Assembly: GCA_003157445.1 (NCBI GenBank)
Contig: PMJN01000043.1
Location: 9,338-31,998, forward strand
Length of the DNA stretch: 22,661 bases
Origin: Micrococcales bacterium
Lineage (GTDB): Bacteria; Actinomycetota; Actinomycetes; Actinomycetales; Dermatophilaceae
Reading direction: 5' to 3'
Part shown: piece after piece, positions 5,337 through 21,822 of the stretch
Layout of the letters: each line of letters starts with the position of its first letter
Position numbering within the stretch: the stretch's first letter is position 1
The notes under the pieces: model-generated
Database searches by the model: none
What the model saw: the letters and a program-made list of their open reading frames with translations, nothing else
Told to the model about the DNA's origin: nothing
Program-made: the position numbers and the translations under genes

Positions 5337-5396
5337 GACCTGCGCAAACACCGCTTGGCGCCACCGGGCTGGAACCGGCGACCTACGGATTCAAAA
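5337..5396 (-). repeat. Left repeat A: tRNA-3'-end-like attachment-site relic
   Basis: This 60-bp segment matches 21488-21547 at 53 of 60 positions by direct comparison. On the minus strand it resembles the anticodon-to-3'-end part of a tRNA (TTTGAATCCGTAGGTCG, then a GGTTCCAGC T-loop-like string). The 5' half of a tRNA is missing, so it is not a functional tRNA. It fits a residual attachment site of an integrative element. Confidence 0.65.
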
Positions 5397-5480
5397 ACGC
5401 GATGTGCCATCAGGCCCTTCTCCGGGACGGTTCGGTGGGGCGCGAAGGCAGATCTAAGCTTCTGACCAGCACAAATGCGA

Positions 5481-5524
5481 GGTGGGCCCCGTCGGGCTCG
5501 AACCGACGACTTACGGATTAAAAG
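5481..5524 (-). repeat. Left repeat B: tRNA-Lys-like 3' half (candidate attL)
   Basis: On the minus strand this reads CTTTTAATCCGTAAGTCG, then a T-arm GTCGGTTCGAGCCCGAC, then GGGGCCCACC. This matches the anticodon loop through discriminator of a lysine tRNA. The matching 5' acceptor strand (GGGCCCC) is absent upstream, so only the 3' half is present. The copy at 21663-21706 differs at one of 44 positions, in the same orientation. Homology continues on the island side to about 5640 (21821 on the right). Confidence 0.75.
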
Positions 5525-5640
5525 AACGGGAGATACCCGTTCAGAATGTTGGCGATCCGCCGATTCGTGCGTGGTTCGTTGACGCTGGCTGACACTGGTG
5601 AACACCTTTTTCCACCCTTGTGTGCCATAAATGTGCCATT
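5525..5640 (-). repeat. Extension of left repeat, with AHLWHT-coding motif
   Basis: This segment aligns imperfectly with 21707-21822 (shared strings such as TTCGTGCGTGGTT and GACGCTGGCTGAC). It ends in the paired motif TGTGCCATAAATGTGCCAT at 5621-5639, which also occurs as TGTGCCACAAATGTGCCAC at 21803-21821 and 21413-21431. On the minus strand the motif encodes MAHLWHT, followed by a short frame running toward the attachment-like site. This may be the last codons of a lost integrase, but that is inference. Confidence 0.5.
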
Positions 5641-5914
5641 GACCTCCAGTCTGCCCGTCCTGCTGACCATTGAGATCTCACCCGCAGTTCGACCTCCTGC
5701 CCGGTCGACGATTCGGTTGGAAATCGGAGCAATGACCCGGCGCGGTGGCGCAAGAGCGTCCGCGGCAGGTTCGCAGCATACTTCTTCGTCACCTGCAGAG
5801 GCGTCGCCCGGCGCCACCCGTGCGGGGCCCGCGGCACGCCCGCCGTGTTTCGATTCCGGATCTGCAGGACTTTAGTTTTCTGCGCCCGATTCTGGAGGTC
5901 GTGACCTTTCCGCG

Positions 5915-6646
5915 TCAGGCGGGTTGTCCGTTGGACGAGCTGAGGATGCCTCGTCGTTCGAGGACTGAGACAACGAAGTCGCCTTCGAGTCTCATGTGCT
6001 CTCGGCATGCCGCTTGGACGGCGTCGGGGTCGTTCGCCCTAAGCGCGGCAATGATTGCGGCGTGACCGCGGAGTGCTTCCGGGCTGGCAGGCGGGGGGAG
6101 TTCAAAGACGGACCGGGGCAGGTTTTGCGCCATGTACTTCAACATCCAGATCAGCCGCCGGCTGCCCCCGGTGCGATTAATGAGGGTGTGAAACTCCCAG
6201 TTGATTCCATGTTGTTTTTCCCGACCCTTCGTTTCGGACAGCTGGGCGTTGAGGCTCTGAAGGCGGTCCAGGACGGTATCGGTCATGTGGGAGATGGCTC
6301 TAGTCGCAGCGATGCCTTGAGCGGCACCATGGGCAGCGTAGTGATCTTGGATGTCTTCTCGGGTGATGGGGACGACGAAGGCCCCCTTGTGGGGCTCGCT
6401 TTCGACGAGCCCTTCAGCTTCAAGGGCAATCAGCGCTTCTCGAACGGGGAGTCGACTGACACCGAGAGATTCCGCGATAGCGTCTTGCGGTACACGTCCG
6501 CTCTGGTCCAGATCGCCGGCGAAGATGAGCTCCCGGATGTGATTGGCGACTTCGCGACCCAAGCTGGCACGGTTGACCTTCGGAGCGCTATGACGGCGTT
6601 CCGTGCTCGAGCCACTCGACCGGTTCGCTGGGGATCGTTCGACCAT
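5915..6646 (-). CDS. GntR-family transcriptional regulator, FCD (FadR/VanR-type) subfamily
   Basis: The 243-aa protein starts at ATG 6646 after a strong GGGAGG site (6652-6657). Residues 25-92 form a GntR winged helix (VANHIRELIFAGDL, recognition region AESLGVSRLPVREALIALEAEG, wing KGAFVVPI). Residues 97-235 form an FCD ligand domain with likely metal-ligand histidines H153 (WEFHTLI), H195 (GHAAIIAAL) and H217 (CREHM). FCD regulators usually bind an organic acid or CoA-ester effector and act as repressors of catabolic operons. It is divergent from the zinc alcohol dehydrogenase, and repeated GATCAAATAT strings lie in the shared intergenic region. It is the most likely local controller of the island pathway. 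Confidence 0.9.
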   Translation of the reverse strand: MVERSPANRSSGSSTERRHSAPKVNRASLGREVANHIRELIFAGDLDQSGRVPQDAIAESLGVSRLPVREALIALEAEGLVESEPHKGAFVVPITREDIQDHYAAHGAAQGIAATRAISHMTDTVLDRLQSLNAQLSETKGREKQHGINWEFHTLINRTGGSRRLIWMLKYMAQNLPRSVFELPPPASPEALRGHAAIIAALRANDPDAVQAACREHMRLEGDFVVSVLERRGILSSSNGQPA

Positions 6647-6683
6647 GACCTCCCCCGTCTACTAGACTGCTGCGTCGACTTCG

Positions 6684-6707
6684 GATCAAATATACATGCT
6701 TGCAAGC
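6684..6707. promoter_or_regulatory. Candidate GntR operator 1 plus 10-bp palindrome
   Basis: GATCAAATATACATG (6684-6698) shares its first 10 bases with a second site at 6765-6779. It runs into the perfect palindrome GCTTGCAAGC (6698-6707). It lies 38 bp upstream of the GntR start, where autoregulation would act. Assignment to the GntR protein is by position and repetition only. Confidence 0.4.
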
Positions 6708-6762
6708 TCGGCCGCTGACTCACTGGAGCTCTCAGGTGCGTCGCAGATCCACGGCTGGATCA

Positions 6763-6779
6763 TTGATCAAATATCAGAT
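6763..6779. promoter_or_regulatory. Candidate GntR operator 2
   Basis: TTGATCAAATATCAGAT contains the 8-bp palindrome TTGATCAA (6763-6770) and repeats GATCAAATAT from 6684-6693 in the same orientation. It sits 59 bp before the alcohol dehydrogenase start and could control that gene. Confidence 0.4.
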
Positions 6780-6837
6780 ACCCTCTCCCCAGGACCCTCG
6801 GCAGGTGGCCGAATCGGACGATCCTAGGGTGGTTGTG

Positions 6838-7872
6838 ATGAGGGCAATGGTTGTTGCGAGCCCAGGGGGACCTGAGGCGTTCGAAGCCTGGGATGTGCCC
6901 GATCCGCAACCTAATGACAGGGATTGCGTTGTCCGGGTGTTGGCGTGCGGAGTGTGTTCGCACGATGTCGCCACTCGGAGCGGAACTCTGCGACGTGGCA
7001 TCGTGATGCCGGTGATCTGCGGTCACGAGGTGGCCGGTGAGGTCGTCGAGGTCGGCCGTGGGGTACGGAACCGACGTGTGGGCGATCGCGTGCTTACCCT
7101 GCAGCGGCGTCGGATGTGCGGCGCGTGTGGGGCGTGTCGGTCGGGGCGTGAAACGCTGTGCCGTTCGGCGGAGTTCCTGGGCGACGTGGGTTTGAACGGT
7201 GGCTATGCCGAGTTCGTGCTCGTCGAGGAGGACAATTTGGTCCCGCTGCCTGATTCACTCATCCCGGAGCAGGCCTGCATTATTGCCTGCACCGTGGGCA
7301 GCGAGCTGAATGCGATCCGGGATGTCGGGCGGGTTCGGGCTGGCGAGACTGTACTGGTGACCGGTGCTGGTGGCGGTCTCGGTGTGCATGGTGTGCAAGT
7401 TGCCCTGGCCTGTGGCGCGAGGGTGCTCGCAGTCACGAGCAGTGCGGCCAAGGTAGAGGTCCTGGAAAAGCTGGGTGCTGAGGTTGTTCAGGCCCGGGCT
7501 GGTGAGGATTTTGCCGAGCAGGTCCGCGACATGACCGCAGGTGAGGGTGTTGATGCGGCGATAGATAACGTCGGCACGCCGGTCTTCCAATCGGTGCGAC
7601 GGAGCATGGCCCTTGGCGGTCGGTGGGTTCTGGTCGGACAGCTCACCGGCGAGTTCGTTCCCTTCAACCCGGCCCAGCTGTTCTTGTCGGGTGTCAGTAT
7701 GTTGTCGGCGATCAGTACGACGCGCGCGCAGCTCTACGACGCCCTCAACCTGGTGAGCCGCGGCCAGGTCACTCCGATCGTCACCGGATCGTTTGCCCTC
7801 GCCGATGTCGCGGAGGCTCATCGAGAAGTGAAGAACGCGGCAGCGGTCGGCCGCTTCGTTGTGGTTCCCTGA
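6838..7872 (+). CDS. Zinc-dependent alcohol dehydrogenase (MDR family)
   Basis: Starting at ATG 6838 (AGGGTGG upstream) gives 344 aa, the usual family length. A longer in-frame start at 6700 would cover the candidate operators and adds non-family sequence. Catalytic zinc ligands are C40 (GVCSHD), H63/E64 (CGHEVAGEV) and C151. Four structural-zinc cysteines are C94, C97, C100 and C108. The Rossmann motif is GAGGGLG at 176-182. The enzyme should interconvert an alcohol and an aldehyde or ketone with NAD(P). It is divergent from the GntR regulator and separated by 194 bp from the main operon, so it probably performs an early or side oxidation of the pathway. Its substrate is not visible from sequence. 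Confidence 0.88.
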   Translation: MRAMVVASPGGPEAFEAWDVPDPQPNDRDCVVRVLACGVCSHDVATRSGTLRRGIVMPVICGHEVAGEVVEVGRGVRNRRVGDRVLTLQRRRMCGACGACRSGRETLCRSAEFLGDVGLNGGYAEFVLVEEDNLVPLPDSLIPEQACIIACTVGSELNAIRDVGRVRAGETVLVTGAGGGLGVHGVQVALACGARVLAVTSSAAKVEVLEKLGAEVVQARAGEDFAEQVRDMTAGEGVDAAIDNVGTPVFQSVRRSMALGGRWVLVGQLTGEFVPFNPAQLFLSGVSMLSAISTTRAQLYDALNLVSRGQVTPIVTGSFALADVAEAHREVKNAAAVGRFVVVP

Positions 7873-8005
7873 AGGAAGTTCCGCATCGAGGGCCCCAGCA
7901 GTAGCGGCTTTCGTCGCGATGTGCTGGTTGACGGCCGCCTGTTTGGTGCTGTCGGAGGCGGTTCAGTGAGCCTCGACAAAGGGGCAGAAACAAGCTCACT
8001 ACCTC

Positions 8006-8040
8006 TTGCATAATGAGTCTGCAGTTGTATCATGTATCAA
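8006..8040 (+). promoter_or_regulatory. Candidate promoter and operator of the main catabolic operon
   Basis: TTGCAT (8006-8011) and TATCAT (8028-8033) are spaced 16 bp apart, a plausible sigma-70-type -35/-10 pair. Overlapping the -10 is TTGTATCATGTATCAA (8025-8040), which has TTGnnnCATGnnnCAA symmetry, followed by AGATCAA. That string recalls the GATCAA sites near the GntR gene. Repression by the GntR protein at the -10 is a reasonable inference. Confidence 0.4.
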
Positions 8041-8066
8041 AGATCAAGTTGATTGGGAGGAGAATT

Positions 8067-8510
8067 GTGACGCCGAGTGTGGACGATGTTGCTGAGTTGG
8101 AACCTTTCCGCGAGGGGGTCTTCGACCTCGATCCTTTTGGTCTGCGTGGTGTTCGATGTGCCGTAGGCCACTACACCTTCCCGGTCCGTACGTTCTGCGG
8201 GACGTGCAAGTCGGAGCTGGTCGAACCAGTCCCCTTGTCTGGAGGCGGGGTACTGCACACCTTCACTGTGGTGCGTCAGGCACCACCAGGAGTCTCAGTC
8301 CCGTATCTGCTCGGCTACGTGGATCTGCCCGAGGGCTGCCGATTGATGGCACGCATCGAGCCCCGCCCAGGGGTCGAGCCGGCGATCGGTGCGCCTGTCG
8401 ACCTCGTGCCTGCGATCTTCTCTGATGGCGGCAGTTCCGCGGACCGCCTGGGCTTCGCCTTCGCCATCCGAAACGAGCACCCAGACCCCAAGGAGCGTCA
8501 CGATGCTTGA
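8067..8510 (+). CDS. DUF35 zinc-ribbon/OB-fold protein, thiolase partner (BbsA-like)
   Basis: GTG 8067 follows a strong GGGAGGAG site (8055-8062) and gives 147 aa. The frame is open upstream to 8013, but that start would lie inside the promoter. The N-terminal ribbon reads CAVGHYTFPVRTFCGTC, so C31, H35, C44 and C47 are candidate zinc ligands. The usual second Cys (CxxCG) is missing by a one-residue deletion, and His may substitute. The rest (about 50-147) fits the DUF35 OB fold. Such proteins form complexes with SCP-x-type thiolases, as in BbsAB of toluene degraders and related sterol-side-chain enzymes. The gene overlaps the thiolase gene by 8 bp, which fits an obligate partner. Confidence 0.85.
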   Translation: MTPSVDDVAELEPFREGVFDLDPFGLRGVRCAVGHYTFPVRTFCGTCKSELVEPVPLSGGGVLHTFTVVRQAPPGVSVPYLLGYVDLPEGCRLMARIEPRPGVEPAIGAPVDLVPAIFSDGGSSADRLGFAFAIRNEHPDPKERHDA

Positions 8511-9654
8511 TCCTGCCCACGTGGCCGGCGTTGGAATGATCCGGTTCGGGAAGTACCCGGCCACCGTGACGTTGGAACGGATGGCGGCGCGCGCGGCCAC
8601 TGCCGCGCTGGCCGATGCCGGCGCGACCGCCGACCAGATCGACGCCATCATCGTCGGTCATGTATTCGGCGGCCCGGTTGCCGGTCAACGGATCGCTGTT
8701 GAGCTCGGCCTGGATGGCAAGCCGATCGCTAATGTGGAGAACTACTGCGCGAGCGGGGCTACCGCGATCCGGGAGGCCTGGGTCGCTTTGTCGGCCGGAC
8801 TCCACGATGTGGTGCTGGTGATCGGGGTCGAAAAGATGACCGATCGGATCTTCGGAGGCGTTCGGCCCGATCCCAATGACCTCGACGCGGCCGTGGGCTA
8901 CGTCATGGCGGCCGGGCATGGCATGAGCGCCCGCCGTTACATGTCCGACCACGGGGCAACTCGCGCGCAGATCGCCGCGGTCGCGGTGAAGAACCACGCC
9001 CACTCGGTTAACAACCCGTACGCCCAGTACCAGGTCCCGATCAGCCTCGAGCAGGTGCTTCAGGCTCGGCCGATCGCCGAACCCCTCGGCCTGCTCGACT
9101 GCAGCCCGATCTCGGACGGGGCGGCGGCAATCCTATTGTGCAACCGAGCCGGCCTCGCGCGGCTCGGGGTCAGTGGTGCGGTTCCGCGTGTTCTTGGCTG
9201 TGGCCTGGTCAGTGGCTCCCTGCGCAGCGGTGACGAGCCGCTAAATGCCGAGGACATCTCCCGCCGCGCAGCCCAGGAGGCGTGGCGGCTGACCGGCGTT
9301 GGTCCCGACGACATCGACCTGGTGGAGATGCACGACTGTTTCACCATCGCCGAGATCGTCAGGTTGGAGGGTTTGGGGCTCGTGCCCGTGGGGGAGGGGG
9401 CCCGCTGGACCGAATTGGGGCACACCGGGATCCGTGGCAAACTGCCGGTCAATCCGAGCGGTGGCCTTCTCTCCCGCGGTCACCCCGTGGGAGCCACCGG
9501 GGTCGCCCAGGCCTGCGAGCTGACGTGGCAGCTACGCGGGACCGCCAGCGGCCGTCAGGTCGCCGGTGCCCGTACCGGGCTGGCCTACTGCAAGGGTGGC
9601 ACCGTCAGTGGGACCGATGGTGGATCGGTGACCACGTTGGTGATGCAAGCATGA
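8503..9654 (+). CDS. SCP-x/lipid-transfer-type thiolase (BbsB-like)
   Basis: ATG 8503 follows AAGGAG (8490-8495) and gives 383 aa. The thiolase features are nucleophile C82 in ENYCASG, H277 in EMHDCF, H327 in SRGHPVGATG and C363 in AYCKGG. The HDCF motif places it in the SCP-x-type branch rather than the classical degradative thiolases. It would cleave a 3-ketoacyl-CoA with free CoA. It overlaps the DUF35 gene by 8 bp and the SDR-like gene by 4 bp (ATGA). With those partners it mirrors the gene order bbsA-bbsB-bbsC-bbsD. Benzoylsuccinyl-CoA is therefore one precedent substrate, but no benzylsuccinate synthase is present here and the true substrate is open. Confidence 0.9.
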   Translation: MLDPAHVAGVGMIRFGKYPATVTLERMAARAATAALADAGATADQIDAIIVGHVFGGPVAGQRIAVELGLDGKPIANVENYCASGATAIREAWVALSAGLHDVVLVIGVEKMTDRIFGGVRPDPNDLDAAVGYVMAAGHGMSARRYMSDHGATRAQIAAVAVKNHAHSVNNPYAQYQVPISLEQVLQARPIAEPLGLLDCSPISDGAAAILLCNRAGLARLGVSGAVPRVLGCGLVSGSLRSGDEPLNAEDISRRAAQEAWRLTGVGPDDIDLVEMHDCFTIAEIVRLEGLGLVPVGEGARWTELGHTGIRGKLPVNPSGGLLSRGHPVGATGVAQACELTWQLRGTASGRQVAGARTGLAYCKGGTVSGTDGGSVTTLVMQA

Positions 9655-10229
9655 CCACCACCACGGGAACCGACGGCATCGCGACCACGGCCACGAGGGT
9701 CTTGTTCGTGGGCGACCCCACGAGAATTTCCGCACTGACGCAGCCGGATGCCGGGATGACCGCCGTCGCAGCTGTTTTCGACGTCCCGGCTGACCTGGCG
9801 GGCGCCGTCGTTGTGGTCCCTCGGGTTCCGGACGCGGGCGACTTCGCGCAGATGACGGACCAGGAGTTGGACACCGATCTGGGCGGAGCGCTCTCGGAGC
9901 TGCTGGCCTGGGTGCAGGCGGTCGTCCAACAGCTGGCCGACAGTCGCGGCCACTTGATCATCGTGCTGCCCGCCGAGCCCACCTTGGGGCAGGTCGGCGC
10001 CGCCATGTCAGGAACGTTCTGCGGGGCGGCGCTGTCAATGGCCCGCACCCTGGCCATTGAACTGGATCGCGAACACATCACGGTTAACACCGTGATGCAT
10101 GGCGAACCGACGCCGGCGATTCGGACCGGGTTCGCGGCGCAACTTCAGGCACTGGTCGAGGGCGATGCCATCACCGGACAGGAGATCTACGTGACATCAG
10201 GAACGGACCTAGGGAGGTTGCGGCCATGA
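9651..10229 (+). CDS. Degenerate short-chain dehydrogenase (probable non-catalytic subunit, BbsC-like)
   Basis: The 192-aa protein overlaps both neighbours by ATGA. Its C-terminal half follows the SDR fold: a beta-5-like GHLIIVLPAEPTLG, a helix GAALSMARTLAIELDREHIT followed by VNTV, and an end TGQEIYVTSG. The N-terminal TGxxxGIG nucleotide loop is absent (VLFVGDPTR instead). The catalytic Ser-Tyr-Lys are lost: the Tyr/Lys region reads TFCGAALSMA, with no YxxxK. The next gene encodes an intact SDR, so the pair probably forms a hetero-oligomer. Precedent is BbsCD of anaerobic toluene degradation, where BbsC is an inactive partner of BbsD. A decayed pseudogene is unlikely because the frame is intact and coupled on both sides. 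Confidence 0.8.
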   Translation: MTTTTGTDGIATTATRVLFVGDPTRISALTQPDAGMTAVAAVFDVPADLAGAVVVVPRVPDAGDFAQMTDQELDTDLGGALSELLAWVQAVVQQLADSRGHLIIVLPAEPTLGQVGAAMSGTFCGAALSMARTLAIELDREHITVNTVMHGEPTPAIRTGFAAQLQALVEGDAITGQEIYVTSGTDLGRLRP

Positions 10230-10978
10230 CCGCTGCACGCACGGCATTGGTCACCGGTGGCGCCGGTGGAATCGGTGCGGCGATCGCGCAGCATCTGGCG
10301 GCAGACGGCTACCGGGTCCTGGTCGCCGACGTGGACCTCGAGCGAGCCCAACAGGTCGCCGACTCCGTAAGGCACTGCGGCGGCCAGGCCTGGTCGCATC
10401 ACCTGGACGTCACAAATGGCCAATCGCGGCGGTCGGCGGTCGACTTCACCGTCAGCGAGCTCGGTGGATTGGACGTTCTGGTCAATTGTGCTGGGGTGTT
10501 GCGAGACGCCCGAATCAGAGTGCTCGAACCTGAACGATTTACCGCTCTTCAGCGCATCAATCTCGTCGGGCCACTTGCTCTGACCCGGCTGGCGATCGAG
10601 CCGATGACCGTGGCCGGCCGCGGGGCGATCATCAACATCGCGTCGCGGGCCTGGCTGGGTACCTTCGGTTCTACGGCCTACTCCGCATCCAAGGGAGGCC
10701 TGGTCGGAGCAACCCGCTCCCTCGCACTTGAGCTCGGGCCCCGTGGGATCACCGTCAACTGCGTTGCTCCCGGCTTCATCAACACCGAGATGACGGCCGC
10801 GATGCCGGAGAGAATCTTGCAGCGCATCCGGGCTGCGATCCCGGTGGGACGCGGCGGGACGCCGGCCGACGTGGCCGAAACAGTCCGATACCTAGCCGGC
10901 GCCGGCTACACCACCGGCCAGGTGCTCGTGGTGTGTGGCGGCCGCAGCATAGGGGTGCCCATGGCAGGCGTCGTATGA
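10226..10978 (+). CDS. Short-chain dehydrogenase/reductase, 3-hydroxyacyl-CoA dehydrogenase-like (BbsD-like)
   Basis: The 250-aa protein has every classical SDR motif: TGGAGGIG (10-17) for the dinucleotide, D35 favouring NAD(H), NCAG (87-90), S140, Y152 and K156 (AYSASKGG), and PGFINTEM. The length is typical. It overlaps the degenerate SDR gene by ATGA. Placed directly after the thiolase, it most likely oxidises a 3-hydroxyacyl-CoA to the ketone that the thiolase cleaves. The BbsD parallel is by gene order and pairing with a pseudoenzyme; a FabG-like role is the alternative. A 37-bp gap follows before the ligase gene. Confidence 0.88.
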   Translation: MTAARTALVTGGAGGIGAAIAQHLAADGYRVLVADVDLERAQQVADSVRHCGGQAWSHHLDVTNGQSRRSAVDFTVSELGGLDVLVNCAGVLRDARIRVLEPERFTALQRINLVGPLALTRLAIEPMTVAGRGAIINIASRAWLGTFGSTAYSASKGGLVGATRSLALELGPRGITVNCVAPGFINTEMTAAMPERILQRIRAAIPVGRGGTPADVAETVRYLAGAGYTTGQVLVVCGGRSIGVPMAGVV

Positions 10979-11015
10979 GCAACCCATCCGTCTACCTAGA
11001 CAGGAACCCCGACCA

Positions 11016-12674
11016 ATGAAACCTCAATCACTGGCCAGTCACCGACCGGCGGCGACGACGAGCAGCGCATTGCTGCGCGAGTGGGCTTCGCTGACCCCCG
11101 ACGCCGTCGCGATCACGTTCAACGGGGAGCACATCACCTTCGCGGACCTGGATCGCGACGTCGACGCCTGGGCTCGTTCCCTGCTGGCCGCAGGCATCCA
11201 ACGCGGACAATCGATCTCAGTTCTAACTGGTAACCACCCGCATTTTCTTCGCGCCGCGTTCGCCGCGGCACGGGTCGGCGCCCACCTCGCCCCGCTGAAC
11301 ACGTGGCACACAGCCGCCGAACTGCTGTACACGCTGGCGCACTCCGAAGCGGCACTGTTGCTCGCCACCGATCAGATCCGCCGCGTCAACTACAACAAGA
11401 TCCTTTCGACTTTCCTCCCCGAGCTCACCGACCCCGGACCGCGTGACAGTTACACCCGCTGCCCCGACCTTCATAGCGTCGTCGCACTTGGTGAGCCATT
11501 GCCAGGCGCGCAGTCTTTGGCGGAATTCTTGCGCCGAGGCGACGAGATCGACCCCGTCGAGCTGGCAGCACGCGAGCGCGAGAACACCTCGCACGATCTC
11601 ATGTATGTGCTCTACACCTCCGGGAGCACATCCACCCCCAAAGGGGTGCAACTGCACCAAGGACCGGCGATCGAGAACGGTTGGTGGATCGGGGAGCGGC
11701 AAGGCATCCTGGCACAGGACCGGTCATGGTTGGCGACCCCGTTGTTCTACGGCCTCGCCGCAATCCAGGCCCTGTTCGCCACCTGGACGCACGGCGCCCG
11801 GGTCGTCCTCCAGGAGGTCTTCGACCCCGCCGCCGCGCTCGAGTTGCTTCACGATCAACGCTGCACCGTCTACTACGGCTTCGGGAACCTAACCCGCAAA
11901 CTGGTCACTCAGCCCGGATTCGACCGGTCCCGCTTGTTCCTGCGCAAGGGCATGATCGGCTTCTCGGTCGAGGACCGCCGGCTGGCCATCGACGAGCTCG
12001 GTGTGACCAACGGGGTCAGCGTCTTCGGGATGACCGAAACGTACGGCCTGATCGCCCTGACCGACTACCGGGACGACCGTGAGACGGTGATGACCACACA
12101 GGGGCGGCCGCTGCCAGGGTCGGAGATCCGTATCACCGACCCATTCAGCGATGTACCACTTCCTAATGGCGAGGTCGGTGCCATCCAGGTCCGCGGCCGC
12201 ATCACCTCCGGCTACCTCAAGGATCCTGACCGCACTGCGGCCGCCTTTACCCCTGACGGTTTCTTCCGCACCGGTGACCTCGGCGCACTGGACAGCGATG
12301 GCCGACTCATCTATCACTCCCGTGCGACCGAGGTGATGAAGCCTGCTGGAGTGAATGTGTCACCCCAAGAGGTAGAAGCGCTCCTGGACACCGTCCCCGG
12401 CATCACCCAAGCCTATGTCTGCTCGATGCCGGACGACATCGACGGCGAGGCAGTCGTCGCGTTCGTAGAGGCCGACCCGGCCACTACGACCGAGGAATTT
12501 ATCCGCAGCTACCTTCGCGAGCGCGCCGCAAGCTACAAGATTCCGCGGCATTACATCTACCGCACCGATGAGCAGATTCCCCGCCTGGCCAGCGGCAAGA
12601 TCTCCCGGCCACGTCTGCGGCAGGAAGCCATACATGAACTGCAGCCACCCGGCACGGCGGAAGGAAGCAGATGA
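11016..12674 (+). CDS. Acyl-CoA synthetase (AMP-forming, ANL superfamily)
   Basis: The 552-aa protein starts at ATG 11016 with AGGAA upstream. It has the ANL P-loop YTSGSTSTPKG (200-210), an FGMTETYG aromatic/AMP motif, the hinge region TGDLGALDSDGRLIYHSR, and a C-terminal catalytic lysine in PRLASGKISRPRL. It would adenylate a carboxylic acid and load it onto CoA. It is the only acid-activating enzyme in the island, so it should start CoA-ester metabolism of the imported substrate. It overlaps the next gene by ATGA. The acid cannot be assigned; medium-chain or aryl-alkyl acids fit family and context. Confidence 0.9.
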   Translation: MKPQSLASHRPAATTSSALLREWASLTPDAVAITFNGEHITFADLDRDVDAWARSLLAAGIQRGQSISVLTGNHPHFLRAAFAAARVGAHLAPLNTWHTAAELLYTLAHSEAALLLATDQIRRVNYNKILSTFLPELTDPGPRDSYTRCPDLHSVVALGEPLPGAQSLAEFLRRGDEIDPVELAARERENTSHDLMYVLYTSGSTSTPKGVQLHQGPAIENGWWIGERQGILAQDRSWLATPLFYGLAAIQALFATWTHGARVVLQEVFDPAAALELLHDQRCTVYYGFGNLTRKLVTQPGFDRSRLFLRKGMIGFSVEDRRLAIDELGVTNGVSVFGMTETYGLIALTDYRDDRETVMTTQGRPLPGSEIRITDPFSDVPLPNGEVGAIQVRGRITSGYLKDPDRTAAAFTPDGFFRTGDLGALDSDGRLIYHSRATEVMKPAGVNVSPQEVEALLDTVPGITQAYVCSMPDDIDGEAVVAFVEADPATTTEEFIRSYLRERAASYKIPRHYIYRTDEQIPRLASGKISRPRLRQEAIHELQPPGTAEGSR

Positions 12675-15739: not shown

Positions 15740-16827
15740 ACCTGCCGCTGAACGGACTGAAGGTAGTCGAATTCGCGGGGTTAGGTCCTGCCCCTTTCGC
15801 GACCATGTTGTTCGCGCAGGCCGGCGCTTCAGTCCTCCGCGTCGACCGGCCGGGCAGTCGACCGGCCTCGGGAATCCTGGCCGGTGGTCGACCAACCGTG
15901 TCGCTCGACCTGAAAACAAATTCAGGCATAGATCAGGCGCGGGCGTTGATCGAGGAGTGCGATGTGCTCCTGGAAGGGTTTCGACCAGGAGTCATGGAGC
16001 GTCTCGGACTAGGCCCCGATGCGTGTATGGCGATGAATACTGGGCTGGTCTACGGCCGGGTGACGGGATGGGGTCAGGAGGGTCCTCGAGCGCAAGAGGC
16101 CGGACACGACATTAACTACCTAGCGTTGACGGGGGCGCTGCGTTCGATCGCCCGGAACGGTCACGCGCCCGTGCCGCCGCTGAACCTTGTTGGCGACTAT
16201 GGCGCCGGGGGGATGCTGTTGGCGTTCGGTGTACTGCTCGCGCTGCAGGAGCGCTCCGCCTCCGGGGTGGGGCAGGTCGTCGACGCGGCCATGGTTGACG
16301 GGGTGAGCCTGCTCATGGCCGGCATCTGGAATCGCCGCGCTCAGGGCGACTGGTCCGAGGAGCCGGGCACCAACGACATCGACTCCGGGGCCCCGTTCTA
16401 CGACGCGTATCGCACCGCAGACGGTGAATACATGGCGGTAGGCAGCTATGAGCCACAGTTCTACGCGCGGCTGCTGCAAGGTCTGGATCTCGACTCTGGC
16501 GAACTCGGTGACCAATGGGACCGGTCGCGGTGGCCCCACCTCAAACAGGTCATTGCCGATCGATTCGCCACCGGCACCAGGCACGAGTGGACAATGCGAT
16601 TCGCTGACCTTGACGCGTGTGTCACACCAGTGCTTTCGATGGCCGAAGCCGTTCAGGACTCCCACATCACGGCCCGAGCAACGCTGACGACCGGCGCTGA
16701 TGGACCCCAGCCGGGACCGACTCCCCGCCTGAGCAGAACACCACTGATCACGGCGTCAACTAGCGAATCCAACCTCGTGGAGTTCACTCAGGCTCTCAAT
16801 TCCTGGAGAGCACTCTGCCCAACGTGA
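15736..16827 (+). CDS. Alpha-methylacyl-CoA racemase (AMACR/MCR) of the family III CoA-transferase fold
   Basis: The 363-aa protein starts at GTG 15736, overlapping the permease stop (GTGA). The racemase residues known from mycobacterial MCR (H126, D156, E241) are all present at a constant offset of two: H124 in EAGHDINY, D154 in LVGDYGAG and E239 in SYEPQFY. This favours an alpha-methylacyl-CoA racemase over a CoA-transferase, although both share the fold. The enzyme interconverts (R)- and (S)-2-methylacyl-CoA so that a stereospecific acyl-CoA dehydrogenase can act. Its presence suggests the substrate acid is branched or substituted at C2. It is the last gene of the main overlapping operon; a 167-bp gap follows. 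Confidence 0.88.
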   Translation: MNLPLNGLKVVEFAGLGPAPFATMLFAQAGASVLRVDRPGSRPASGILAGGRPTVSLDLKTNSGIDQARALIEECDVLLEGFRPGVMERLGLGPDACMAMNTGLVYGRVTGWGQEGPRAQEAGHDINYLALTGALRSIARNGHAPVPPLNLVGDYGAGGMLLAFGVLLALQERSASGVGQVVDAAMVDGVSLLMAGIWNRRAQGDWSEEPGTNDIDSGAPFYDAYRTADGEYMAVGSYEPQFYARLLQGLDLDSGELGDQWDRSRWPHLKQVIADRFATGTRHEWTMRFADLDACVTPVLSMAEAVQDSHITARATLTTGADGPQPGPTPRLSRTPLITASTSESNLVEFTQALNSWRALCPT

Positions 16828-16880
16828 CAAGCCTCTGGAGGCGGCGCGCATGTGAGTGATTCGGCTCCACCGCCCGGTGA

Positions 16881-16921
16881 GCCGTCGTCCAGCGTGGGTC
16901 TTGGGACCCACGAAGGACGGC
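16881..16921 (+). terminator. Two-tier hairpin between racemase and acyl-CoA dehydrogenase genes
   Basis: GTGGGTC (16894-16900) pairs with GACCCAC (16905-16911) around a TTGG loop, and an outer GCCGTC (16881-16886) pairs with GACGGC (16916-16921). There is no T tract, so it may be a weak terminator, an RNA-processing stem or an operator. It marks the boundary between the two transcription units. Just after it, GACGCGC and GACGCGCAC repeat near 16968-16980 ahead of the next RBS. Confidence 0.4.
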
Positions 16922-16994
16922 CGGCCACACAAGACAGCAATCAATTGCAGTCACCGACGATGACGCGCGTGACGCGCACAACTAGGAGATTCAC

Positions 16995-18161
16995 ATGGAA
17001 GGCCTGATCGACGAGGAGCGCGAGATCGTCAAGATCGTCCGGGAGTTCGTGGACCGGGACGTGAAGCCTGTGGTTCAGGAGCTGGACCACGCCAACACCT
17101 ACCCCGAGAAGCTCATCGAGACGATGAAGCAGATGGGCATCTTCGGGCTGGCCATCCCGGAGCCGTGGGGCGAGGCAAGGGTGAGCACGCCCTGCTACGT
17201 CCTGGTCACCGAAGAGCTCTCTCGCGGTTGGATGAGCCTGGCTGGGGCCATGGGCGGTCACACCGTGGTCGCCAAACTGATCCAAAGCTACGGCACGCAG
17301 GAGCAGAAAGACGGGTACCTGCCCCGGATGGCCACGGGGGAGCTGCGGGCCACGATGGCGTTGACCGAGCCCGGCGGCGGGTCCGACCTGCAGGCGATGA
17401 CCACGACCGCAAAGCGGGACGGGGACGAGTACGTGATCAACGGGTCCAAGACCTGGATCTCCAACGCCCGCAAGTCCGACCTGCTCGCCCTGCTTGTCAA
17501 GACCGACCCGGCGGCCCGCCCGAAACACAAGGGGGTCTCGATCCTGCTGGTCGAGAAGACCCTCTCCACTCCTGGCTTTACGCTTTCGCGCGACCTGCCC
17601 AAGCTTGGCTACAAAGGTGTGGAAAGCTGCGAGATCGCCTTCGAGCAGATGCGCGTGCCGGTCTCCTGCCTGCTTGGGGAGGCTGAGGGCACCGGCTTCG
17701 CCCAGATGATGCGCGGGCTCGAGGTCGGCCGGCTGCAGGTGGCCGGCCGTGCGCTCGGGGTCGGGAGGGCGGCGCTGGAGGACTCCATGAGGTACTCCCA
17801 GGAGCGGGAGAGCTTCGGGGTCCCGATCTGGAAGCACCAGTCGATCGGCAACTACCTGGCCGAGATGGTCACCAAGCTGACCGCCGCCCGTCAGCTGACG
17901 TTGTATGCCGCGCGCAAGTTCGACTCGGGCCAGCGCGCCGACATGGAGGCCGGCATGGCGAAATTGTTCGCCTCCGAGGCGGCCATGCAGATCGCCCTGG
18001 ATGCGGTGCGTATCCATGGAGGCTACGGCTACTCCACCGAGTTCGACGTCGAGCGCTACTTCCGCGACGCACCGTTGATGATTGTCGGTGAGGGCACCAA
18101 CGAGATCCAGCGCAACGTCATCGTCCGACAGCTGATCAAACGTGGAACGGTAGCGCCCTGA
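16995..18161 (+). CDS. Acyl-CoA dehydrogenase
   Basis: ATG 16995 follows AGGAG (16984-16988) and gives 388 aa, the usual size. FAD/substrate motifs are visible: ALTEPGGGSD (about 123-132), TWISNARKSD, and the C-terminal RIHGGYGYSTEFDVERYFRD. The catalytic base position is E366 in VGEGTNEIQ, as in short- and medium-chain members. It should make the alpha,beta-double bond in an acyl-CoA, passing electrons to ETF. It opens the second transcription unit, separated from the CitE-like gene by a single base. With the racemase it fits dehydrogenation of a 2-branched acyl-CoA; a dicarboxylyl-CoA substrate is also possible. Confidence 0.92.
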   Translation: MEGLIDEEREIVKIVREFVDRDVKPVVQELDHANTYPEKLIETMKQMGIFGLAIPEPWGEARVSTPCYVLVTEELSRGWMSLAGAMGGHTVVAKLIQSYGTQEQKDGYLPRMATGELRATMALTEPGGGSDLQAMTTTAKRDGDEYVINGSKTWISNARKSDLLALLVKTDPAARPKHKGVSILLVEKTLSTPGFTLSRDLPKLGYKGVESCEIAFEQMRVPVSCLLGEAEGTGFAQMMRGLEVGRLQVAGRALGVGRAALEDSMRYSQERESFGVPIWKHQSIGNYLAEMVTKLTAARQLTLYAARKFDSGQRADMEAGMAKLFASEAAMQIALDAVRIHGGYGYSTEFDVERYFRDAPLMIVGEGTNEIQRNVIVRQLIKRGTVAP

Positions 18162-18162
18162 G

Positions 18163-18999
18163 ATGACCGAGCCGGACTCAACCCGCGCCAGCTGTTCGGC
18201 TGCCACGGCGAGAACCCTGTTGTTCGTGCCGGGCAACCGGCCGGAGCGGTTCGCCAAGGCCGCCGCGACGGCTGCGGACCTGGTCATCGTCGACCTCGAG
18301 GACGCGGTGCCGGACGAGGACAAGGCGAGCGCGCGCGACGCGGTGGCGCAATGGCTCAGCGCAGATGGTCGGGCCGCGGTCCGCGTCAATGGCACCAAAA
18401 GCAGTGACTACCAACAGGATGTGGCGACACTGGCTGGCCTTCCTGGGTTGCGGGCGGTGGTGGTTTCCATGGCCGACGACCCGGCAGCGCTGATCGCCCT
18501 GCATCAACGGCTGGGCCAGGACGTGGAGATCGTGCCGCTGGTCGAGACTGCGCTGGGCATCGTGAAAGCTGTTGAGCTTGCCGCTGTTCCAGGCGTTAGC
18601 CGTCTGGCGTTCGGGCACCTCGACTTCGCAGCTGACATCGACTCCTCGATCGAGGACGAGGCAATGCTCATGGCGCGCTCGTTACTCGTGGTCGCCTCCC
18701 GGGCGGCGGGGTTGCCAGGCCCAGTCGACGGGGTCACCACCGCCCTGGATGATCCGGTGGCATCAGGTTCTGACGCGGCCCGGGCTCGCAGCCTGGGTTT
18801 TGCGGGGAAGCTCTGCATCCACCCCAGCCAGGTGGAGGCCGTCAATGCAGCGTTCAGCCCCAGCACGCAGGAGATCGCGTGGGCGCACCTCATCATCGAG
18901 GCGTCCACCGCCGGGGGAGCGGTGCGCGTCGATGGTCACATGGTTGACGCCCCCGTCATCCTCAAGGCACGCGCCATCCTCGTCCGAGCACAGGAGTGA
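18163..18999 (+). CDS. CitE-like (HpcH/HpaI superfamily) acyl-CoA lyase
   Basis: The 278-aa protein starts one base after the dehydrogenase stop. It has LFVPGNRPERF (20-30), VIVDLEDAVP (41-50), R74 in VRVNG, E128 in PLVETALGI, D154 in FGHLDFAADI and GKLCIHPSQV, all as in CitE-like enzymes. Members cleave or form malyl-, methylmalyl- or citramalyl-CoA-type 3-hydroxyacyl-CoAs with a divalent metal. The strand usually ending in PK (VVLPK) reads VVVSM here, so substrate binding may differ. Next to an itaconyl-CoA-hydratase-like gene it could act as a citramalyl-CoA-type lyase releasing a 2-oxo acid. Sequence alone does not settle the product. Confidence 0.85.
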   Translation: MTEPDSTRASCSAATARTLLFVPGNRPERFAKAAATAADLVIVDLEDAVPDEDKASARDAVAQWLSADGRAAVRVNGTKSSDYQQDVATLAGLPGLRAVVVSMADDPAALIALHQRLGQDVEIVPLVETALGIVKAVELAAVPGVSRLAFGHLDFAADIDSSIEDEAMLMARSLLVVASRAAGLPGPVDGVTTALDDPVASGSDAARARSLGFAGKLCIHPSQVEAVNAAFSPSTQEIAWAHLIIEASTAGGAVRVDGHMVDAPVILKARAILVRAQE

Positions 19000-19001
19000 A
19001 C

Positions 19002-19847
19002 ATGAGCCAGAACCCCCAGAGCGTGGTCAGGACGGAGCTGATCACACCGGGGCCGTCGGAGGCGCTGGCTAACCTGTTCGGCACCGACCTCCCGACCGGT
19101 GACCTGCCCACGCTGTGGCACTGGATCTACCTGTTGGAGAAGCGTCCCCACGCCGACCTCGGTCCTGACGGGCACCCCACATTCGGTATCCCCGCCCCGC
19201 CTGGCCCGGGTAAGAGGCGGATGTTTGCCGGTGGCCGGGTGAGCACGCTGGAGCCGCTGGCCTTCGGCGTGCCCGCGACCAGAACCACCTGGGTCGCCGA
19301 TACCAAGCAGAAGCAGGGCAGCACCGGACCGCTCACCTTCGTCACGGTCCGCAACGAGTATGCCCAGGACGGCCGGGTCTGCATCGTCGACGAGAACGAC
19401 ATCGTCTATCGCACACCGGCATCGAGCCTCTCCGTCCAGGCTGGTGCCCTCACGTCAGCATCGCTCGAGCCCTCGCCGCCGCTCCTGCGCGAGCCCGCCT
19501 TGAAGCTCAATGCCGACGAGGCGCTGCTTTTTCGTTTCTCGGCCCTGACGTACAACGCCCACCGGATCCACTACGACCACAACTGGGCTCGGCAGGAGGG
19601 TTACAGCGACCTGGTCGTCCATGGTCCCCTGCAGGCCATGATGATGGGCGAGCTGATACGCCGCTGCGGCGATGGCCTGATCGGCAAGGTGTTCGCCTAC
19701 CGGCTCATTTCGCCGATGATCGGCACCCAGACCTTCACCGTGCTCGCCGGGGCGGACGGGGTCAACGCCACGGTCGAGGTCCGTGACGCGCACGGCACCG
19801 TCACTGCGGTCAGCACTGTCGGCCCGATCGACCCGGACCAGGAGTGA
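19002..19847 (+). CDS. MaoC-type hydratase, itaconyl-/mesaconyl-CoA hydratase-like
   Basis: ATG 19002 has GGAG (18993-18996) at a good distance; GTG 18996 is an in-frame alternative overlapping the previous stop. The 281-aa protein has a degenerate N-terminal hot-dog half (1-150) and a C-terminal MaoC half with FRFSALTYNAHRIHYD (about 178-192) and VVHGPL (206-211). That architecture matches FAS1-like dehydratase-domain proteins such as mesaconyl-C4-CoA and itaconyl-CoA hydratases. It would hydrate the enoyl-CoA made by the dehydrogenase, giving the 3-hydroxyacyl-CoA for either the SDR pair or the CitE-like lyase. It is packed directly behind the CitE-like gene. Confidence 0.88.
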   Translation: MSQNPQSVVRTELITPGPSEALANLFGTDLPTGDLPTLWHWIYLLEKRPHADLGPDGHPTFGIPAPPGPGKRRMFAGGRVSTLEPLAFGVPATRTTWVADTKQKQGSTGPLTFVTVRNEYAQDGRVCIVDENDIVYRTPASSLSVQAGALTSASLEPSPPLLREPALKLNADEALLFRFSALTYNAHRIHYDHNWARQEGYSDLVVHGPLQAMMMGELIRRCGDGLIGKVFAYRLISPMIGTQTFTVLAGADGVNATVEVRDAHGTVTAVSTVGPIDPDQE

Positions 19848-20149
19848 GGTAGGCGGCTATGGCCTTTGCCGTTTCGCTTGAGGCCATCTTGGCGTCGTGC
19901 TCGATTTCCGCGGCTGGAACCCGCGACGGGGGAATCGACTTCCAGACCTTGACCGCCCGGCGCGTCTTCCGGGTACGGGAAGGACAAGAGCTGTGGTTGG
20001 AGCTAATGCGGCAAGGGGATCGGGTCTCGGTCAAGCCGCACCCTCGCTGCCGGATGCCCCTGCTGTCATGTGATGCACTCCCACGGCCTCCCCCAGACGT
20101 AGTCAGCAACAGTCAGAAAAGGTACCCCCAGGACGTCAAGGAGAAGATT
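19848..20149. other. 302-bp gap before the NIPSNAP gene
   Basis: The NIPSNAP frame stays open back to 19859, but the added ~97 residues show no family resemblance. The only good ribosome-binding site is at 20137-20144. No RNA gene, hairpin or clear promoter was recognised. The stretch could hold a promoter for the last gene or the scar of a lost one. Confidence 0.4.
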
Positions 20150-20758
20150 ATGCTTTATGAACTGACTACGATTTCCAGCCCTCCGCTGGAACAAACCGCC
20201 GTCTCTGCCGCTGCGCGCAACTGGGTTCTGGATGGGGAAGGTCGGCTCCTGGGCGCCTGGCGCACGGAACTCGGTGAACTCTTCCAGATCAAGCTACTGC
20301 GCGGCTTTGAGACCGCCGAAGAGCTCGAAAAGGAACGGCTGCGCGCGCTCATGAGCGCCCATCCATTTAGTATCGATGACCCGTCCAGCCGATTGAGCAT
20401 GGAGCGGTACGCGCGCTTCCCTTTCCTGCCCGACGTCGAGCCGCTGGCATTGGGAGGATTCTATGAATTCCGGACTTATCATCTGAAGCCGGGTGGCCTG
20501 GCACCGACTCTGGCGGCATGGGAGCAAGCCATTGGTCCCGCTCACGACTACAGCCAGCATCTGGTGGTCAATATGCATGCTCTGGATGGCCCGCCCCGGA
20601 TCACCCACATCTGGGGCTTTTCCAGCCTGGAGGAACGCGCTGCGTTACGCGAACGCCACTACGCCGACGGCCTGTGGCCACCAAGGGGCGGTCCACAACA
20701 GATTGCAAGGGCCACATCAACGATCTGCATTCCGGAAGAGTACTCACCGCTTAAGTGA
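20150..20758 (+). CDS. NIPSNAP family protein
   Basis: ATG 20150 has AAGGAGAAG just upstream and gives 202 aa. The protein has two ferredoxin-like NIPSNAP halves. The second is clearest: ALGGFYEFRTYHLKPGGLAP at about 102-121, followed by HIWGFSSLEERAALRERHY. NIPSNAP proteins have no fixed bacterial reaction but recur in aromatic and terpenoid degradation clusters. It is the last island gene, downstream of the MaoC-like gene after a 302-bp gap, and may have its own promoter. A role in binding or converting a pathway intermediate is inferred from position only. Confidence 0.75.
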   Translation: MLYELTTISSPPLEQTAVSAAARNWVLDGEGRLLGAWRTELGELFQIKLLRGFETAEELEKERLRALMSAHPFSIDDPSSRLSMERYARFPFLPDVEPLALGGFYEFRTYHLKPGGLAPTLAAWEQAIGPAHDYSQHLVVNMHALDGPPRITHIWGFSSLEERAALRERHYADGLWPPRGGPQQIARATSTICIPEEYSPLK

Positions 20759-20929
20759 GGCCATCCGTTCCGGCCAGACTCACAGGACAAGCCCAAGATC
20801 AGGGGAAACCGACGACGAGAAGTCGTTGCCCGGCAAGGGAAAAAGCCGTGTCTTCGGATCGTGCGGCTGCTGTTCGCGGCCGCTGCCGACCGCCGGGGTG
20901 TGACCGCTCACCGCCCCGGCGCGTTGGAG

Positions 20930-21363
20930 CGGGTCAGCTGCTGGATGACTTCCGCGACACCGGACGACGCCAGAGCGTGACTGAGGCCTGCCTGGGTCGA
21001 CGTCCTCGACGAGCTACAGCTGACCGAACTGGTCTGTTCCATCGCGTTGGTCTGTCCGCTCTGGGAGGCGCGACCATCCTGGCCGAGAACGTCGACCTGA
21101 CCCGCTTCGCCAGCGCCCGGGCCGTGGTCAAACACTCCGGCCTGGCTCCACGGGAGAAGACCAGCGGAACCTACACCGGCCGCACCAGGCTGACGTTCGT
21201 GGCTTGGCTCCTGCCCCGACCGGAGGCCGAGGCACGCATCTCGACCAACGGCCGCAGACGTCCTCTTGTCGGCAATATGTGGGTGGCCATGCTCTGGTCC
21301 CGCGTCCGAGTTCTCAGGTGTCGCCCCGGCCGCGGTGACCGTGACGGCTACTTCGCCCGGCTC
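20930..21363 (+). pseudogene. IS110-family transposase remnant (C-terminal part, frameshifted)
   Basis: The Transposase_20-like C-terminal region is recognisable in pieces: QLLDDFRDTGRRQ in one frame (from about 20935), then VDVLDELQLTELVCSI in another (from 20996), then GLSALGGATILAENVDLTRF and ARAVVKHSGLAPRE back in the first (from 21049). At least two frameshifts are needed. The N-terminal DEDD domain is missing, and the end after about 21196 no longer follows the family. It is a dead relic beside the right attachment-like repeats. Confidence 0.78.
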
Positions 21364-21412
21364 TAGCGGAATTGAGTTAGAGCACATGGAACAGGCTGTG
21401 GATCCGTCACGA

Positions 21413-21431
21413 TGTGCCACAAATGTGCCAC
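21413..21431 (-). repeat. Paired TGTGCCAC motif (third copy)
   Basis: TGTGCCACAAATGTGCCAC is identical to 21803-21821 and near-identical to 5621-5639. On the minus strand it encodes VAHLWHI in this copy. It lies on the outer side of the IS110 relic and just before right repeat A. Confidence 0.55.
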
Positions 21432-21487
21432 AGGGCCACTGCCGAGGGGCAGTTCCTGGCAGATCACAGGGGCGGCTCCAAGCCGCT

Positions 21488-21547
21488 GACCTGCGCAAAC
21501 ACCGCTTGGCGTCACCAGGCCCGAACCGATGACCTGCGGATTCAAAA
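21488..21547 (-). repeat. Right repeat A: tRNA-3'-end-like relic
   Basis: Direct partner of 5337-5396 (53 of 60 identical, same orientation). It starts with GACCTGCGCAAACACCGCTT in both copies and ends in GGATTCAAAA. As on the left, no tRNA 5' half is present. It is followed by further TGTGCCA-type strings (21585-21592). Confidence 0.65.
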
Positions 21548-21662
21548 TGAAGAGACTCCTTGTCGCCTCGCCATGTGGCACAAGATGTGCCATTTTCTCG
21601 TGATCAGGGATGGTGCCAGATCATCTGAGGCGGTCTGCAGGCCTCTGACCTGCACAAACACT

Positions 21663-21706
21663 GGTGGGCCCCGTCGGGCTCGAACCGACGACCTACGGAT
21701 TAAAAG
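21663..21706 (-). repeat. Right repeat B: tRNA-Lys-like 3' half (candidate attR)
   Basis: Direct partner of 5481-5524, with one difference in 44 bases (C versus T in GACGACYTACGG). It keeps the T-arm TTCGAGC loop and GGGGCCCACC end of a lysine-type tRNA on the minus strand, without the 5' half. It is the outer right boundary marker of the ~16-kb island. Confidence 0.75.
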
Positions 21707-21822
21707 AGCGATCAAAACCCGCTTGGAATGCTCGCGATCGGCCGTTTCGTGCGTGGTTGATTGACGCTGGCTGACTCGGTTGGACAGCGTTTCTCACTCT
21801 TGTGTGCCACAAATGTGCCACG
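21707..21822 (-). repeat. Extension of right repeat with AHLWHT-coding motif
   Basis: Imperfect match to 5525-5640, ending in TGTGCCACAAATGTGCCAC at 21803-21821. The minus strand reads MAHLWHTRVRNAVQPSQPAS, paralleling MAHLWHTRVEKGVHQCQPAS in the left copy, so the similarity holds at the protein level too. This suggests the segment was once coding. Confidence 0.5.

Follow-up and report, generated by a model that had tools for sequence, protein, structure and literature searches.

The locus and its repeated ends

The stretch of DNA analysed here, called the window, comprises 22,661 nucleotides of a Micrococcales bacterium of the family Dermatophilaceae (assembly GCA_003157445.1) and corresponds to positions 9338-31998 of contig PMJN01000043.1 (C65 of the source genome, G000), the right end of the window being the end of the contig. 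The source assembly has 3.8 Mb in 551 contigs and is 68.6% complete. Our subject is a 16.2-kb segment, which lies between two copies (B_L and B_R) of a tRNA-Lys(TTT) 3' half and contains, between 5.9 and 20.8 kb, genes that look, from their predicted families, like a CoA-based catabolic route (Table 1). We interpret it as a probable unit of a tandem array of integrated elements.

Table 1. Features of the window, in order of position; roles and gene assignments are predictions.
Feature	Position	Strand	Remark or basis
tRNA-Pro 3' half, third scar	5074..5116	-	no 5' half found
Arm-like direct repeat of the tRNA-Pro scar, AGTACCGCA type	5201..5221	-	read from sequence
A_L	5353..5396	-	putative second core, decayed and tRNA-Lys-like, of the unit adjoining on the left; best tRNA match Lys
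B_L	5481..5524	-	tRNA-Lys(TTT) 3' half; putative recombination core of the unit's distal end (attR)
P spacer	5525..5620	-	96 bp from core to arm pair; part of the 158-nt repeat
P arm pair, left	5621..5640	-	3 mismatches to TGTGGCACANNTGTGGCACA; identical letters in G182
Distal-end remainder, conserved	5641..5806	-	matches G182:C128
GntR/FCD regulator	5915..6646	-	Pfam
Zinc alcohol dehydrogenase, OB-fold (ChsH2-type) protein, thiolase/lipid-transfer protein, SDR-like protein, SDR	6700..10978	+	Pfam; NCBIfam for three
Acyl-CoA synthetase (AMP-binding)	11016..12674	+	Pfam
SMP-30/gluconolactonase-like, carboxymuconolactone decarboxylase-like, MFS transporter, CoA-transferase III	12671..16827	+	Pfam
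Acyl-CoA dehydrogenase, HpcH/CitE-type lyase, FAS1-like dehydratase, NIPSNAP protein	16995..20758	+	Pfam
IS110-type transposase remnant	20755..21366	+	Pfam PF02371, residues 99-147
Left-end continuation, conserved, inside the unit	21248..21412	-	78% to L099 over window 21248-21706
Intact P' arm pair, TGTGGCACATTTGTGGCACA	21413..21432	-	71 bp from A_R
A_R	21504..21547	-	putative decayed tRNA-Lys-like second core; best tRNA match Lys
Degenerate P' arm pair	21574..21592	-	70 bp from B_R, one half inverted; sequence and alignment
B_R	21663..21706	-	tRNA-Lys(TTT) 3' half; putative core shared by this unit (proximal end) and the next one (distal end)
Next unit's P side, right	21707..21822	-	96-bp spacer and arm pair 21803-21822 (1 mismatch)

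B_L and B_R are identical at 43 of 44 positions, and both correspond to the final 44 bases of tRNA-Lys(TTT). An earlier note on this DNA, made from the letters, had given this figure, as well as 53 identical positions of 60 for a second pair of repeats with their flank (A_L and A_R), and recomputation returned the same values. The note had taken A and B for the ends of two different tRNAs; the paired repeats on both sides are real, but A and B both match tRNA-Lys(TTT) best, tRNA identity being called here from the best match in a library of 51 tRNA halves. Similarly, the 44 bases assigned to the B repeat are indeed its core, but the homology reaches further: 5481-5638 and 21663-21820 align over 158 nt, P arm included, with 132 identical positions. 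When the right-hand module was compared with the source genome, the left module was matched at E 9.5e-46, far past chance. The intact tRNA-Lys gene of the relative G180 contains a 43-base core identical to B_R (43/43). Source contig C220 ends inside the core with the tRNA-Lys 5' half attached, and 24 of its 24 core bases are those of B_R (BLAST); a repeated core is a likely break point for short-read contigs.

Each B copy is accompanied, 96 bp off the core on the P side, by a direct repeat TGTGGCACA-NN-TGTGGCACA with an 11-bp period. Read on the minus strand, a P' side comes after B_R (its arms at 21592-21574 and at 21432-21413) and a P side (arms at 5640-5621) before B_L, the unit between the cores thus having B_R as its proximal and B_L as its distal end. 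This order, core-P' arm ... P arm-core, can be read directly from the letters and is the one that a tyrosine integrase would leave. The two ends have the same core, arm motif and spacing, and the correct polarity, as do attL and attR, the left and right attachment (att) sites, of one specificity. Beyond the two cores, parts of two other units are seen: a P side to the right of B_R and, to the left of B_L, a P' side that is cut at 5336/5337; thus at least three units appear to be stacked. Since both ends have one polarity, the intact tRNA gene should lie to the right, past the end of the contig. The earlier note had described the ends correctly as repeats, but had noted neither the arm sites nor the polarity, nor the tRNA-Pro scar (5074-5116).

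The note's statement that the repeats have no tRNA 5' half, and the island no integrase inside, was borne out. ARAGORN, run on the whole window, found zero tRNA genes, and a profile made from nine integrases of the source genome detected no integrase-like frame among the open frames of at least 60 aa at E<=1e-4; the stretch from the right arm pair to the contig end also had none. No integrase, relaxase or transfer family was found by Pfam in 23 window frames (the remaining frames were left unscanned), and no remnant of lost integration or transfer genes was found in the unit. Rfam matches to CC0196 and to the RhlA thermometer were weak, under the gathering scores, and were taken as chance.

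Attachment sites and integrases in relatives

The exact arm motif occurs in 14 of the 186 family genomes, the source included, and its reversed control in none; among the carriers are Intrasporangium calvum, I. oryzae, a Micrococcales bin, Knoellia remsis, Mobilicoccus caccae and Arsenicicoccus cauae. The exact pattern was found in 45 stretches of named genomes, and six loci on viral contigs also have the motif. Searched with the att module, the phage and plasmid collections gave one and two records, respectively, in each of which the match, around the tRNA core, took in no more than 37% of the query. A relaxed pattern found five arm pairs in the source genome (three on C65, one on C141, one on C512) and none with the reversed control. 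With up to three mismatches the matches numbered 15 vs 3 control matches in the source, 2 vs 4 in G180, 2 vs 1 in G181 and 4 vs 2 in G182, where all four are located on contig C128. Given these counts, loose arm matches elsewhere carry little meaning.

A tRNA 3' half lies within 280 bp of 23 of the 55 distinct exact arm sites, as against 0 of 156 control positions in the same loci; the remaining 32 sites, many of them from distant phyla, have no tRNA half. The distance between core and arm, measured from the end of a local alignment, is narrowly distributed. On the P' side it is 70 bp in seven of 11 single-core sites, 70-72 bp in nine and 59-72 bp in all 11, and on the P side it is 96-98 bp in six of six actinobacterial sites; the gaps in the window are 70, 71, 96 and 96 bp. 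The tRNAs at the sites counted for spacing are Lys(TTT), Met(CAT) or Arg(CCT). These counts omit L097 (an alphaproteobacterium, tRNA-Ser, two overlapping sites), L101 (Planctomycetales, tRNA-Leu) and the double-core sites L099, L143 and L144, all of which are included in the 23 of 55. As read from their sequence, the arms and cores are integrase attachment sites.

Behind the P' arm, nine of 12 single-core ends have a tyrosine integrase, or a piece of one, of a single subfamily; the integrases compared, from elements at Lys, Arg and Val tRNAs, are 44-79% identical over at least 300 aa. The arms at fixed spacing and the arrays of tRNA-Lys and integrase genes in relatives support the earlier proposal of site-specific integration at tRNA-Lys. 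The suggestion that an integrase would have to come from elsewhere also gained support, from a related integrase in the source genome itself. On source contig C449 a Met core (4749-4791) is separated by a 70-bp gap from arms (4862-4881, 2 mismatches), and an integrase frame lies at 4818-5684. Its product is 49-65% identical to the compared integrases over 167-267 aa, and 72% identical to a 91-aa piece. The longest integrase frame on C449 is of 289 aa. Upstream of it, a frame of 165 aa resembles further integrase sequence (50% over 62 aa), thus the gene may be broken or misassembled.

Close parallels to the window were seen in G180 and in G041. Contig C173 of G180 carries tRNA-Lys, a 383-aa integrase gene and a TrwC relaxase gene, and a single contig of G041 has an intact tRNA-Lys, an integrase gene and two further halves. 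These loci share with the window the tRNA-Lys core (43/43 in G180, 95% in G041) and related integrases, but their ends are single-core, and the arms of G180:C173 are, by eye, of GTACACA type. In I. calvum G042, of the same genus as G041, one contig has an intact tRNA-Lys, an integrase piece and two further halves. A second contig of G180 has a Lys half with another arm type. On G180:C146 (L238, 6792-7318) a TGTGGCACA-type P arm and a tRNA-Met half lie directly against the 3' end of an integrase gene that has repeats of GTACACA type, the P arm of one type being joined through the Met half to the integrase end of the other, which is a sign of two element types in tandem.

In ten relatives picked from core matches and read for about 10-14 kb downstream of tRNA-Lys, a distance beyond which a farther core could escape, seven had a single Lys core (G010, G092, G009, G099, G096, G040 and G123), which also speaks for integration at tRNA-Lys, and G106, G173 and G041 had more than one Lys core. 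A genome-wide core search, limited to the best three candidates per genome, gave one match in five of the seven and two in G096 and G123.

Some side observations were made at these loci. In I. calvum PheN6 (L246, 1381-1665; also L112) an A-like sequence, recognised by eye and with an alignment score of 14, below the cut-off, and an intact arm pair face a tRNA-Lys half that is inverted relative to them, which sets this site apart from the direct arrays. Past a tRNA-Lys half on G180:C4 (L239, 180-430) there are small open frames that by eye resemble a toxin-antitoxin pair.

The double-core end

Within 230 bp of B_R there follow A_R and an arm pair, and together they form one composite end. The same arrangement is found on contig C128 of the sister species G182, where an arm (4967), the B core (5081-5124), a second arm (5197), A (5221) and a third arm (5337) follow each other, and a 140-bp unit of core, spacer and arm (core to A, start to start) occurs twice. 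Window 5337-5806 is 89% identical to G182:C128 4798-5280, and the DNA match stops there; on the A_L side it stops at 5337, which places the breakpoint at 5336/5337. The right end of the window has the same order, with B_R 70 bp from the degenerate and A_R 71 bp from the intact arms. L099, a 5.3-kb contig binned as Chloroflexi, carries the composite end at 78% identity over window 21248-21706, and source contig C141 has a double-core end at an intact tRNA-Met. The ends in G182 and L099 enclose other contents; the conservation of the ends is 74-89%. In L099 (1-5266) a frame of 1527 aa, with BcrAD ATPase and DUF2229 domains, comes after the double-core tRNA-Lys end, and the contig is either mis-binned or a case of wide transfer.

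All five A copies, two in the window and three elsewhere, match tRNA-Lys best, at Lys and at Met sites alike; the C141 copy, which stands at tRNA-Met, scores 24 with tRNA-Lys vs 19 with tRNA-Met. The T-stem pairs are all kept (5/5) in both window copies and four are kept in G182 and L099; the C141 copy is out of register. The possibility that A represents a different tRNA could thus be ruled out. The same applies to A as the att site of a second element, because in G182 it lies 140 bp from the B core inside one end. Of the earlier suggestion that two elements had accreted in tandem, the accretion is supported, by the arrays of half tRNAs in relatives, but the assignment of A and B to two elements is not. 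A is, judged by these matches, a decayed tRNA-Lys-like second core within the same end, the arrangement core-70 bp-arm being present twice.

Double-core ends appear to go with missing integrases. When the 600 bases downstream of 24 source tRNA calls were searched, a decayed second half within 200 bp was found at Met(CAT) and Pro(CGG) only; the other tRNAs never exceeded the best of 100 shuffles, with the exception of a tie for Ile, whose neighbour is a real tRNA-Ala. None of the four double-core ends chosen had an integrase found within 2.5 kb behind the arm, as against an integrase or a piece of one in nine of 12 single-core ends (one-sided P 0.019 if the ends are independent, related ends being treated as such). 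It must be noted that some single-core loci extend for less than 2.5 kb behind the arm (minimum 437 bases) and all four double-core loci for more, and that the left window junction, cut before its arm, and C153 were omitted. Source contig C153 (L092, 2082-2346) is a counter-case: behind its intact tRNA-Pro(CGG) come a second, decayed Pro 3' half and part of an integrase (92-aa frame), with arms of another type.

The likeliest origin of A, we infer, is a former tRNA 3' end left by the deletion of a later element. A later integration would give the tRNA gene a fresh 3' end and leave the old one (A) to decay, most of the later element would then be deleted, and the doubled end would be inherited and spread. 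In the literature searched we noticed no description of a doubled core of this kind, or of its link to absent integrases. It is conceivable, if doubtful, that in a family of cargo cassettes without integrases the doubled attL is functional, as a standard end (core, 70 bp, arm, old core, 70 bp, arm) which a resident integrase would recognise in trans, so that different contents could pile up at tRNA-Lys and switch to tRNA-Met. If it were functional, the decayed second core would record the previous target, as Lys over Met in C141.

Origin of the segment

The acyl-CoA synthetase was found at E<=1e-120 in one of the 186 family genomes, that of the source (the best seven candidates per genome were scored, and weaker homologues are possible). 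The closest synthetases are 97% (P0001, one metagenome contig of 12.8 kb), 79%, 77% and 67% (Saccharopolyspora) identical, and those on plasmids at most 51%. NCBIfam, run on ten window proteins, eight of them from the cargo, reached no curated cut-off. The last part of the IS110 remnant overlaps the conserved element end (the L099 match extends down to 21248).

The left side of the window also looks like an accretion site, to judge from its repeats. Positions 5083-5117 are 89-94% identical to tRNA-Pro genes of the source, and 5083-5336 is 84% identical to G180:C19, where the copy has the same kind of repeat as the window; in the 15.2 kb searched, G180:C19 has three tRNA-Pro halves, 3.9 and 4.5 kb apart. 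A protein with metallo-beta-lactamase fold and rhodanese domain is encoded further left (1158-2552), and its 35-36% identical relatives adjoin MFS homologues in G180.

We consider that the 16.2-kb segment is probably, with a likelihood of about 75%, one integrase-less unit of a tandem array, and in structure a cis-mobilizable element (CIME) with catabolic cargo. Its ends are those of the integrase-bearing relatives. The ancestor would have carried its own integrase gene beside the P' arm, as the relatives do; this gene would have been lost and the catabolic operon would have taken its place. The unit, which keeps attL and attR, could not move alone, but a related integrase acting in trans, or an array neighbour in cis, could excise it by recombination between B_R and B_L.

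Several observations weigh against this interpretation. The tRNA-Lys 5' half (C220) and the array on C65 are on separate contigs of a 69%-complete bin, and we infer their linkage. The loose arm pattern exceeds its control in the source and slightly in G181 and G182, and not in G180. In the single-core relatives, coverage downstream of the tRNA ended after about 10-14 kb. In one relative, part of the cluster stands free of the repeats, an arrangement that the earlier note had named as telling against an integrated island: the acyl-CoA dehydrogenase and dehydratase (window 16953-19837) are present at 83-89% DNA identity on G180:C119, where the 17.3 kb read contain no core and no arm beside them, and the dehydrogenase part occurs at 86% also in G181, at two contig ends. 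With such pieces also present in G180 and G181, the cargo has a mosaic make-up and perhaps did not travel as one block. (In G180:C119, L237 13242-15342, the HpcH-type lyase that lies between the two genes in the window is missing; it was either inserted in one or lost in the other.) The third-codon-position GC content (GC3) of the cargo is indistinct from the sampled background (median 0.744 in 65 crude open frames from eight source contigs, several of them chosen for mobile-element matches), thus base composition could not be used as support. Finally, when the tRNA-Lys loci of relatives were searched for the left-flank genes (E<=1e-10), none turned up, with the exception of a 35%-identical homologue of the metallo-beta-lactamase-rhodanese protein in I. 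oryzae; because of this absence, the left side may be more accreted DNA and not native flank.

These observations could also mean that, although the att modules are genuine, the segment has at no time moved as a single element, scars of different elements having come to bracket chromosomal or recombined DNA by deletions and homologous recombination. The cargo part found free of repeats in G180, the packing of Lys and Pro scars into 5074-5640, and the breakpoint at 5336/5337, which joins pieces from different loci in G180 and G182, would all fit such a history. It is nevertheless quite unlikely in our view, given that the two ends agree in core and arm spacing and are correctly oriented, and that at the cut-off used none of the 185 other family genomes has the synthetase. 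Could the unit still be mobilised in trans by a resident integrase, as a satellite and not a dead relic? This would refine the interpretation as a CIME-like unit and is not exclusive with it. The related integrase frame on C449, with its Met core, 70-bp gap and 2-mismatch arms, and the conservation of composite ends around different contents speak for it; the possibly broken C449 gene, the degenerate first P' arm of B_R and the three mismatches in the arms of B_L, though G182 has the same letters there, make it an unlikely prospect.

Two other explanations of the repeats fare worse. That they are an assembly artefact or chimera of a metagenome-type bin is suggested by the fragmentation and incompleteness of the assembly and by the fact that both C220 and L099 end at the core; it is very improbable when the left junction recurs at 89% in G182 and the right one at 78% in the independent record L099, and when the window copies differ at 26 of 158 positions and cannot be one sequence used twice. 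Plain duplication of a tRNA pseudogene or tRNA cluster, with no element involved, would explain why the tRNA halves are the most conspicuous part, but it can hardly account for a homology that extends to arms outside the tRNA, at fixed spacing, beside integrases in relatives.

It is useful to compare the unit, as we interpret it, with systems described previously. By the definition in PMC5704250, which places CIMEs in tandem arrays of integrative and conjugative elements (ICEs) and integrative and mobilizable elements, the unit would be a CIME in structure: no integration or transfer genes were found, attL and attR are kept, and accretion is in tandem at a tRNA 3' end. It differs from the CIMEs described there by its doubled-core left end, actinobacterial host and catabolic cargo, and its mobilisation in cis is putative. 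A close precedent, described in PMC3146451, is offered by the Dehalococcoides genomic islands at ssrA, 15 of which have no integration module; they too are in tandem, bounded by repeats of an RNA-gene 3' end, catabolic in cargo and in some cases integrase-less, but they use ssrA and a serine recombinase, whereas the window unit is associated with tRNA-Lys and tyrosine integrases with arm sites. Actinomycete ICEs mostly have, according to PMC3218068, tyrosine integrases acting at tRNA 3' ends, with tandem insertion at tRNA-Lys in Frankia, and closely related actinobacterial integrases use tRNA-Lys and tRNA-Met; in contrast to these elements, no integrase or transfer gene was found in the window unit.

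If our interpretation is correct, a tRNA hotspot can retain a catabolic operon that has no mobility gene of its own, and may also serve as a source from which the operon spreads. The family of actinobacterial att sites described here has a measurable geometry (70 and 96 bp), with which the use of tRNA targets (Lys, Met, Arg), the loss of integrases and layered integrations may be read from sequence.

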